NCBI GenBank assembly: GCA_021768085.1 | Contig: JAETOJ010000002.1 | Span: 1 to 64,000 of the forward strand | Origin: Bacillota bacterium | GTDB lineage: Bacteria > Bacillota > Clostridia > Oscillospirales > Oscillospiraceae | DNA: 64,000 bases | Direction of reading: 5' to 3' | In this document: one piece after another, positions 46,186 to 48,027 of the stretch | How positions within the stretch are numbered: position 1 is the first letter of the stretch | How the letters are laid out: every line of letters starts with the position of its first letter | Translations under genes and position numbers: made by a program | Notes under the pieces: generated by a model | The model's input: only the letters and a program-made list of their open reading frames with translations | What the model was told of the DNA's origin: nothing | Database searches by the model: none

Positions 46186-46380
46186 TGAGAGGAGGTGTGG
46201 ATCGGCATACTCAACTCAACAAAATAAAAATTTTGTTGAGTTGAGGGGAGGGGAAAACCCGGGAAACGCCTGGTTTTCCCGCTGGGCTCAGGATTCTGGC
46301 CGGAGCCTGCCAACCGCTCCGGCCGCCTGCCACTGTAGTCTGCCCAACTGTCCCCAAGTTATGAATGCCGATCCGAATCC
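46186..46380 (+). ncRNA. Structured element between the Shine-Dalgarno and ATG of the tyrosine recombinase
   Basis: A closing stem of 10 perfect bp (GGATCGGCAT at 46199-46208 with ATGCCGATCC at 46365-46374) encloses a 16-bp hairpin with loop AAAA (46210-46245), a 9-bp hairpin (46251-46280), a 9-bp hairpin GGCCGGAGC/GCTCCGGCC (46298-46324) and a possible TGGGC/GCCCA stem (46283-46287 with 46342-46346) around the last. AGGAGGTG (46190-46197) lies just before the closing stem, and the recombinase ATG lies 6 nt after it. It may be a folded 5' leader, a separate ncRNA or an inserted element. No named RNA family was recognised by eye. Confidence 0.6.
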
Positions 46381-47415
46381 ATGATTGACTACCGCATTGA
46401 GGCGCCGCCTATCCTGCGGGATTTCCTGACCTACCATGAGACGATCCAGGGCCACTCCAAAAAAACTGTGGACGAATACTTCCTGGATCTGCGTACCTTT
46501 TTCCGCTACATTAAAATAGAAAAAGGCCGTGTTCCCCGTGCGACACCCTTGGAGCAGATCTCCATCAGTGATGTGGATCTGGCGCTGATCCGCTCGGTGA
46601 CGCTGACGGATATCTACGCTTTTCTCAGCTTCCTGAGCCGTGATCGGGTTAAGAACGCCAACGATCCCAACTCCAGGTATGGGCTTGAGGTGTCCTCTCG
46701 GGCCAGAAAAGTCGCTACAATTCGATCTTTTTACAAGTATTTGGTGACAAAAGCCAAACTCCTGGACGAAAGTCCCATCCAGGAATTGGATTCGCCTAAG
46801 ATCCGGCAGACTCTGCCCCGTTACCTGACACTTGAGGAGAGCATCCAGCTTTTGGAATCCATCGACGGAGACAATGCAGAGCGGGATTTCTGCATCATTA
46901 CGCTGTTTCTGAACTGCGGCCTGCGGATCTCGGAGCTGGTGGGGCTCAACCTGGCCGATGTGCGGGGCGACCGGCTGCGGGTGCTGGGCAAGGGCAACAA
47001 GGAGCGGATCGTTTACCTCAACGCCGCCTGTCAGGCCGCTATTGAGGACTGGCTGGTGGTACGTTCCCAGTCCGGCGCGGCGGATCCCTACGCCTTGTTT
47101 ATCACCCGCAAGCACACCCGCATCACCAAGGCGGGCGTCCACTATATGCTGAAGCAGCGGTTTACCGCCGCGGGGCTGGACAGCAGTAAATACTCCGCCC
47201 ACAAGCTCCGCCACACCGCCGCCACCCTGATGCTGCAAAACGGCGTGGACGTGCGAACGCTCCAGGAGGTGCTGGGCCACGAGCACCTGAATACCACCCA
47301 GATCTACACCCATGTGGACAGCGACGCCTTGAAGGACGCCGCCCAGTCCAATCCCCTGGGACAGCTCAAAGCCAAGCCCCGCCGGGGCCGGCCGCCGAAG
47401 CAGAAAGAAGATTGA
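46381..47415 (+). CDS. Tyrosine recombinase, XerC/XerD-like
   Basis: A 344-residue site-specific recombinase. An N-terminal SAM-like core-binding domain (about 5-115, FLTYHETIQGHSKKTVDEYF) precedes the catalytic domain with GLRISELVGL (Arg), HKLRHTAATLM (His-x-x-Arg) and GHEHLNTTQIYTHV (His and catalytic Tyr). The C-terminal tail is basic (KPRRGRPPKQKED). The ATG is the first start in frame and lacks a nearby ribosome site; a strong one lies beyond the structured element. It may be the chromosome-dimer resolvase or an element integrase. Confidence 0.88.
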   Translation: MIDYRIEAPPILRDFLTYHETIQGHSKKTVDEYFLDLRTFFRYIKIEKGRVPRATPLEQISISDVDLALIRSVTLTDIYAFLSFLSRDRVKNANDPNSRYGLEVSSRARKVATIRSFYKYLVTKAKLLDESPIQELDSPKIRQTLPRYLTLEESIQLLESIDGDNAERDFCIITLFLNCGLRISELVGLNLADVRGDRLRVLGKGNKERIVYLNAACQAAIEDWLVVRSQSGAADPYALFITRKHTRITKAGVHYMLKQRFTAAGLDSSKYSAHKLRHTAATLMLQNGVDVRTLQEVLGHEHLNTTQIYTHVDSDALKDAAQSNPLGQLKAKPRRGRPPKQKED

Positions 47416-47421
47416 AAAAAT

Positions 47422-48027
47422 ATGTGGGTATCAAAGATAACAAAGGAAAAATTAACAAATGATGTGATAGATCGTCTTTTATTTGAAGGTTTGAATGATA
47501 ATGGAGCGAGTGTTGACTGTATTATTGTTTTAGGCAGTATAAAAGCGGCAAAATATAGAGTTCCTATAGCGGCTGAGGCGTTTTTTTCGGGAAGAGCTGA
47601 AAAGATACTGCTATGTGGAGGAAAAATAAGAAGCTTTTCCGGTCAACACATGGCAGAAGCAGATAATATGTATCAGAAAGCCTTGGAATTGGGCGTTCCC
47701 GAATCAAGCATTATCATTGAAAAAAATTCTCAAAATACAATAGAAAACATATTATGTTCCTTGTTGAAATTACAACGTTCAATGTGGTTAAATAAAGTAA
47801 AAAGCGTGTTGCTGGTGACAACAACATATCATATGCGCCGAAGTTTACAGATAGCAAGATATCTTTTTCCATCCCACATCAATATATATCCTTGTCCAGC
47901 AGATGACATAACGACGAAAAGGGATAATTGGATGAATACGCCTGAAGGAATCGACAGAGTAAAAAAAGAGGCATTGAATATCGTAAAATGTGTTAATAAT
48001 GGTGTATTTCCTGATTTTGAAATATAA
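47422..48027 (+). CDS. YdcF/DUF218 family protein
   Basis: A 201-residue protein with VDCIIVLGS, ILLCGGKIRSFSG, KNSQNTIENI and VTTTYHMRRSLQIA, the pattern of the DUF218 (YdcF/SanA) fold. Members include proteins tied to envelope barrier function and SAM-binding homologues; this one has no clear membrane segment. It begins 6 nt after the recombinase gene. It is far more A/T-rich than its neighbours, suggesting transfer, possibly with the recombinase. Confidence 0.8.
   Translation: MWVSKITKEKLTNDVIDRLLFEGLNDNGASVDCIIVLGSIKAAKYRVPIAAEAFFSGRAEKILLCGGKIRSFSGQHMAEADNMYQKALELGVPESSIIIEKNSQNTIENILCSLLKLQRSMWLNKVKSVLLVTTTYHMRRSLQIARYLFPSHINIYPCPADDITTKRDNWMNTPEGIDRVKKEALNIVKCVNNGVFPDFEI

Follow-up and report, generated by a model that had tools for sequence, protein, structure and literature searches.

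A candidate dif site housed in a predicted structure-bridged ribosome-binding site of its linked Xer recombinase gene in Oscillospirales

In bacteriophage T4 genes 25 and 38, RNA structure between the Shine-Dalgarno (SD) sequence and the AUG cuts their spacing from 27 to 11 nt and from 22 to 5 nt, respectively; these are the two examples of a split ribosome site given in the accessible portion of PMC3014915, and their loops are under 30 nt. In canonical XerCD/dif, the site has a pair of inverted arms and lies at the replication terminus, close to the skew switch (PMC3025954, accessible portion). In XerS/difSL of streptococci and lactococci and XerH/difH of epsilon-proteobacteria, the terminus carries a dif-like site to which the Xer gene is linked (accessible portions of PMC5357621 and PMC2731167); in XerL/dif of Legionellales, more than 400 kb separates dif from xerL, according to the accessible portion of PMC9765430.

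We analyzed a 64,000-nt stretch of DNA (herein the window; positions 1 to 64,000 of contig JAETOJ010000002.1, GCA_021768085.1) from a bacterium of the Oscillospiraceae, in which the leader of an xer-like gene separates the SD from its start codon. The original prediction, made from the sequence of this locus, described the SD, a 10-bp closing stem (herein P1), the ATG, an in-frame TAG and a spacing of ∼9 nt once the stem is closed, all of which we find where it placed them (Table 1); across closed P1, the distance from GGAGG to ATG is 3 + 6 = 9 nt. Absent from it was a conserved dif-like inverted repeat inside the element. The reading that we favor, at a probability of roughly 0.8, is that of a dif-xer module with dif housed in a structure-bridged ribosome site of its recombinase gene.

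The leader resembles those of T4 genes 25 and 38 in that RNA structure would shorten an overlong SD-AUG spacing, here to 9 nt. It differs from them, as far as they are described in the accessible portion of PMC3014915, in having a loop of several helices and, across relatives, of about 100 to 290 nt, and also in holding a DNA site inside that loop and in belonging to the chromosomes of many bacterial species; it is best read as the T4 logic on a larger scale. With XerS/difSL and XerH/difH it shares the linkage between an Xer gene and a dif-like terminus site, but the window protein does not reach the XerS model, the arms are long, uninterrupted and symmetric, and a canonical XerD coexists; the accessible portions of PMC5357621 and PMC2731167 make no mention of a leader fold. 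XerL/dif, in the accessible portion of its description, has in common with the present locus long uninterrupted inverted repeats and, if one Xer suffices here, a single recombinase, whereas here dif adjoins xer. The terminus site, the two inverted arms near a skew switch and the presence of a canonical XerD recall XerCD/dif, from which the locus departs in that both arms are identical and the window protein scores under the XerC and XerD cut-offs. A dif inside a structure-bridged xer ribosome site was not found as a combination in the mainly open-access literature that we searched. A possible counterpart, the “xerDC RNA motif,” was set aside, the accessible portion of PMC2864571 describing STAXI, a different motif.

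Table 1. Features of the xer leader in the window (helices are predicted)
Feature	Coordinates	Strand	Remarks
Shine-Dalgarno AGGAGGTG	46190..46197	+	183 nt 5′ of ATG in the linear sequence
P1 closing stem, 5′ arm GGATCGGCAT	46199..46208	+	pair probabilities 0.90-1.0; own-partner pairing between species
dif-like perfect inverted repeat; RNA hairpin	46210..46245	+	core ACAAAATAAAAATTTTGT at 46219-46236
Purine flank AGGGGAGGGG of dif	46244..46253	+	46245-46249 is the P2 5′ strand
Inner hairpin P3	46251..46280	+	not conserved between genera
Inner hairpin P4	46298..46324	+	not conserved between genera
In-frame TAG	46336..46338	+	closes the frame upstream of ATG
P2 3′ strand TCCCC, partner of 46245-46249	46351..46355	+	pair probabilities 0.65-0.85
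P1 closing stem, 3′ arm ATGCCGATCC	46365..46374	+	perfect complement of 46199-46208
xer-like tyrosine recombinase, 344 aa	46381..47415	+	start ATG 46381-46383

The predicted fold of the leader (46186-46390) is particularly stable, with a minimum free energy (MFE) of −95.6 kcal/mol compared with a mean of −63.93 (standard deviation 4.72) for 200 dinucleotide shuffles (z = −6.71), none of which was as low. P1 is found in both the MFE and the centroid structure, and all ten of its pairs have a probability of 0.90 to 1.0 with each of the four flank lengths tried. Forbidding the P1 5′ arm raises the minimum to −80.1 kcal/mol, a cost of 15.5 kcal/mol; when the 5′ zone is shuffled 200,000 times, a 10-bp Watson-Crick helix between the two short zones arises in 25 cases. 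The strongest feature inside P1 is the inverted repeat itself, 16 bp and perfect, its arms separated by 4 nt. Pairing of SD bases 46191-46193 with 46378-46380, just before the ATG, has a probability that ranges with context from 0.17 to 0.93; it is the one contact of variable probability seen in the folds computed, and in the fold where it reaches 0.93 it could hinder initiation. No Rfam family was found in the leader at gathering score, and at E values up to 10 there were only four matches, all far under their gathering scores. No terminator was found. A start just 3′ of the SD-like AGGGGAGGGG flank was considered and rejected for the window leader: it has no ATG, GTG or TTG within range, and the TAG at 46336 closes the frame.

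Because RNAalifold on a MAFFT alignment misses P1, the arms of which slide, and does not show it, we compared the pairing of each arm zone with its own partner and with the partners of other leaders. Across 57 of the 61 eligible leaders (L020, L028, L029 and L097 have no SD word), the own-partner duplex reaches −15.3 kcal/mol, compared with −11.6 kcal/mol after permutation, and 0 of 20,000 permutations were as good. The result holds for 29 dissimilar cluster representatives: the mean helix is 5.86 with the own partner and 3.87 with foreign partners (0 of 100,000 permutations; four representatives without an SD word counted as zeros), helices of at least 8 pairs form in 11 of 29 with the own partner and in 1.5% of foreign combinations, and 0 of 50,000 permutations match the duplex energy of own-partner pairing. 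Strength and position combined favor the own partner in 16 of 26 cases (4.5 expected; 0 of 20,000 permutations). Position alone is less sharp (47/57 own vs. 46.5% of foreign pairs), and a whole-arm duplex test, which is blunt, ranked the own partner first in 4 of 29 rows and within the top tenth in 8. Control zones gave a poorer fit, both in the 30 nt upstream (20 leaders; −12.7 vs. −15.7) and in the initial 30 bases of the coding sequence (29 leaders; −12.2 vs. −16.2).

The outer ends of P1 stay near the SD and the start while the arm sequences differ completely between species. The stems GCTGAAAGAGA/TCTCTTTCAGC (L026), CGGCGAGAC/GTCTCGCCG (L048), GGGATATTG/CAATATCCC (L089), GGAGCGATACA/TGTATCGTTCC (L099; one G-U) and CCACAGGT/ACCTGTGG (L109) are mutually unrelated in sequence. 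This pattern supports the central proposal of the original prediction, that a distant SD is brought to the start by folding. Its expectation that a comparison of homologs would find the closing stem conserved held for the 29 representatives, in which 0 of 100,000 permutations equaled own-partner pairing, but not throughout: among the 64 leaders that share the layout of the window, 42 have a contiguous P1 of at least 6 pairs in the tested geometry and 22 do not. An MFE fold with at least 5 closing pairs is predicted for 54 of the 64. P2, in which the purine flank of dif pairs with a pyrimidine run 5′ of the P1 3′ arm, shows two-sided changes in three of seven pairs, together with some breaks, in the near clade (RNAalifold, alignment A1). 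The marks of a split ribosome-binding site are thus present as an SD that is too distant, none near the start, and a spacing-restoring structure conserved by pairing, the 22 of 64 leaders aside.

Relatives of the leader fall into several classes. The set comprises 89 leaders after removal of L002 (the same place as L001), L024 (contig ends before xer), L046 (cut) and leaders that duplicate another over the 90 nt preceding the start. In 64 of these, dif has the orientation seen in the window, the start lies at least 28 nt away and the SD precedes dif. In class B (7/89), SD and start come straight after dif, and the purine flank lies just before the start; dif is reversed in 10/89, several of which, by eye, have dif ahead of promoter-like words and an ordinary SD; 8/89 are arranged otherwise. 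Five leaders from the same genus (L019, L020, L021, L028 and L029) lack a P1-type stem and before dif have no more than a weak GGAG word, and P1 is weak or absent in L101, L103, L105 and L106 as well. An SD word 4 to 18 nt before the start is absent from 55 of 57 leaders, and all 22 leaders of alignment A1 keep the GG-GG of the distant SD unchanged. The recombinase tree, from which L005 and L030 were left out for their short proteins, has bridged leaders in each of its two main clades (5 and 35 rows). The bridged label requires 15 changes on this tree, nine of them forced by well-supported branches; the bridge has therefore been gained or lost repeatedly, or the cut-off splits borderline cases. 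The interior of P1 differs between leaders in both length and sequence. At 46336-46364, a separate block, TAGTCTGCCCAACTGT...TTATGAAT, retains its sequence in about 20 near leaders; it is conserved within the near clade only and does not track the changes in the dif arms.

In the favored reading, dif lies in the 5′ leader of xer, between the SD and the start codon, and the same bases would serve twice. At the DNA level, the palindrome at the replication terminus would be the place where the adjacent Xer resolves chromosome dimers. At the RNA level, the dif bases would form a hairpin, P2 would cover the SD-like purine flank, masking a decoy SD, and P1 would close the base. With P1 closed, the true SD would stand about 9 nt from the ATG and the 30S subunit would use both halves as one site; since P1 would bring the SD near the ATG, the leader would be a split, structure-bridged ribosome-binding site on which translation depends, probably in a constitutive arrangement. 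Computed features underlie this reading: the site is single-copy, lies at the terminus and is linked to xer, the P1 arms pair with their own partners across species, and the SD is kept, with none near the start. The bridged ribosome site would let dif stay beside xer. As to origin, most likely the module keeps dif by xer, the site came between SD and start, and a looping fold preserved translation.

The leader might instead be a regulatory switch, as the original prediction suggested, with P1 opening and closing on a signal (a ligand, temperature or Xer itself) and so gating translation of the recombinase. A ribosome site that relies on its fold, taken with the variable SD contact, makes an off-state conceivable, and that contact with the bases before the ATG is the main structural argument for control. 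Against a switch, P1 is near 1.0 in each context tried, and the only interior core common to the two aligned leader groups is dif with its purine flank; neither these groups nor Rfam, in which the leader has no family, provide the conserved ligand-binding core of a riboswitch, and no sensor was discerned in the leader. We therefore regard the suggestion of a switch as unsupported and the reading as unlikely. Equally doubtful, in our estimation, is a coupling of the two roles, in which Xer at dif would block its own transcript, the dif hairpin, P1, P2 and the SD contact would tune translation, and supply would follow the terminus; if this were true, dif in a bridged ribosome site would be a feedback device, more than an accommodation.

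To return to the candidate dif site, a blastn search with the element matched 57 of 99 genomes (own included), most matches covering the palindrome and its flank. A pattern search located the palindrome in 82 of the 89 non-redundant leaders of the recombinase gene (absent in 7; the position in L098 was set by hand). The arm letters vary in step on both sides, with CTCAAC, CTAAAC, GTAAAC, TTGAAC and TTAAAC types each having matching partners, as expected if two copies of one protein bind. Among 395 genomes of the order, 101 have the core, single in 100 and double in G159, while the reversed control pattern occurs once in total in the 395. In four single-contig genomes the core lies at 51.1, 49.9, 55.1 and 56.6% of the length, measured from the contig start, which may not be the origin. 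A 22-base consensus that we take to be the Firmicutes dif gave no match at up to 3 mismatches.

The position of the palindrome also follows the GC skew. Cumulative skew of the window's contig peaks at 48,588, 2.4 kb from the site, and in G068, sampled in 15 stretches, skew stays positive or close to zero as far as the site and is negative from 1,538 kb onward. Among 20 genomes chosen for long contigs or contrast, and so non-random, skew is greater to the left than to the right of the site in all 19 with both flanks (G391 has no right flank); it passes from positive to negative in 13, and G122, G136, G204, G246, G276 and G100 have no full sign change. The match in G122 fails outside the core and may be due to chance. 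The palindrome thus has the marks of a dif-like site as judged from sequence (a single copy at the terminus or skew switch, about 28 to 31 bp, two inverted arms and a short center), with a predicted role in dimer resolution.

A window-type recombinase ortholog adjoins the site in 29 of 30 distinct loci, the remaining locus ending at a contig edge, which is the linkage of gene to site expected of a single-recombinase module. Exceptions are G296, G257, G328 and G333: their fetched flanks have no xer, yet the palindrome marks the skew switch (in G328, a window-type xer ortholog lies 48 kb from it). Because it stands at the skew switch even without a nearby xer, the palindrome is maintained at the level of DNA, without dependence on the leader. 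These observations bear on the proposal that the palindrome is an operator for xer autoregulation and no recombination site, to which its symmetry and its place in the leader of a gene for a DNA-binding protein would lend themselves. The single copies at the skew switch in G328 and G333, with no xer nearby, and the mid-contig positions in the four single-contig genomes make this very unlikely, though a dif site may double as an operator.

Many dif copies, though not all, have a purine motif like AGGGGAGG beside them, whichever way they face relative to xer. It is present in G296, G328, G391 and class C leaders, even without a nearby xer, and missing or poor elsewhere, as in G257 and G333; it may indicate the polarity of the site. 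We considered the purine flank of dif as a KOPS, which we take to be GGGNAGGG, and rejected it: its orientation on the plus strand points away from dif, the wrong direction for guiding FtsK there. Over 164 kb of the contig around 46228, GGGGAGG is strongly polarized toward the site (left, 30 plus and 3 minus; right, 12 plus and 42 minus), a KOPS-like polarity to which GC skew and SD words contribute too. Separately, L060, L103 and L095 have a second, imperfect dif-like palindrome with another center about 100 nt upstream of dif, possibly the trace of an element integrating at dif.

Tyrosine recombinases share a pattern of catalytic residues, visible in the window protein as R182, K204, HKLRH from 274, H300 and Y309. 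The protein is nearest to the XerC, XerD and XerA models, under the cut-off of each; with 226.6 bits for XerC (cut-off 335.15) and 205.7 for XerD (cut-off 329.6) it belongs to neither curated family, and with 142.1 bits for NF003462 (cut-off 267) it falls outside XerS. Relatives with solved structures include XerD, XerA and XerH. Action of one recombinase at the site is likely, yet it may not act alone, because a canonical XerD coexists, its gene 26 kb from the window xer. In surveys of non-random genomes, picked for long contigs or contrast, an XerD match of at least 320 bits was found in 8 of 15 (own included; none at that score in 7) and a window-type Xer in 14 of 14. In two genomes, dif, a window-type xer and an XerD-like gene lie inside 2 kb (G143:C11:584742-586753) and 8.4 kb (G068:C1:1538864-1547240), with the recombinase genes tail to tail. 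In the window, a small divergent Cys-containing ORF with no Pfam match lies between radA and xer (minus strand, about 46131-45955), and its start region was found again in many same-genus loci; right after xer, an AT-rich 201-aa ORF (47422-48027) with no NCBIfam match contrasts with its GC-rich neighbors.

P1 pairing spans dif, and SD, dif and start must therefore share one RNA. Were transcription to start between dif and the ATG, the mRNA would have neither SD nor dif, and P1 would be irrelevant to translation. No consensus promoter was found in the window 5′ of the SD, and a TATGAAT-like word before the start is conserved in the near clade, both of which would suit such a start. It is nonetheless hard to credit, given that own-partner pairing across dif requires both arms in one RNA, that the SD is conserved, and that promoter-like pairs are enriched 5′ of the SD (13 of 64 leaders; 3.4 expected), not between dif and the start (1 of 52; 2.6 expected). 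Insertion of a small MITE-like mobile element between SD and ATG, which 176 nt with terminal inverted repeats might bring to mind, is rejected as next to impossible: the element has one place in its own genome and no match among 50,697 phage or 72,556 plasmid records, and relatives have it at the identical position with unrelated stem sequences.

If the favored reading is true, the palindrome would provide a candidate dif site for Oscillospirales, and long-range folding, found in both main recombinase clades, would be a lasting cellular way to build a start site, one that rules of SD spacing overlook. The locus would also be a natural experiment in which constraints on DNA, for recombination, and on RNA, for the start of translation, fall on identical bases.
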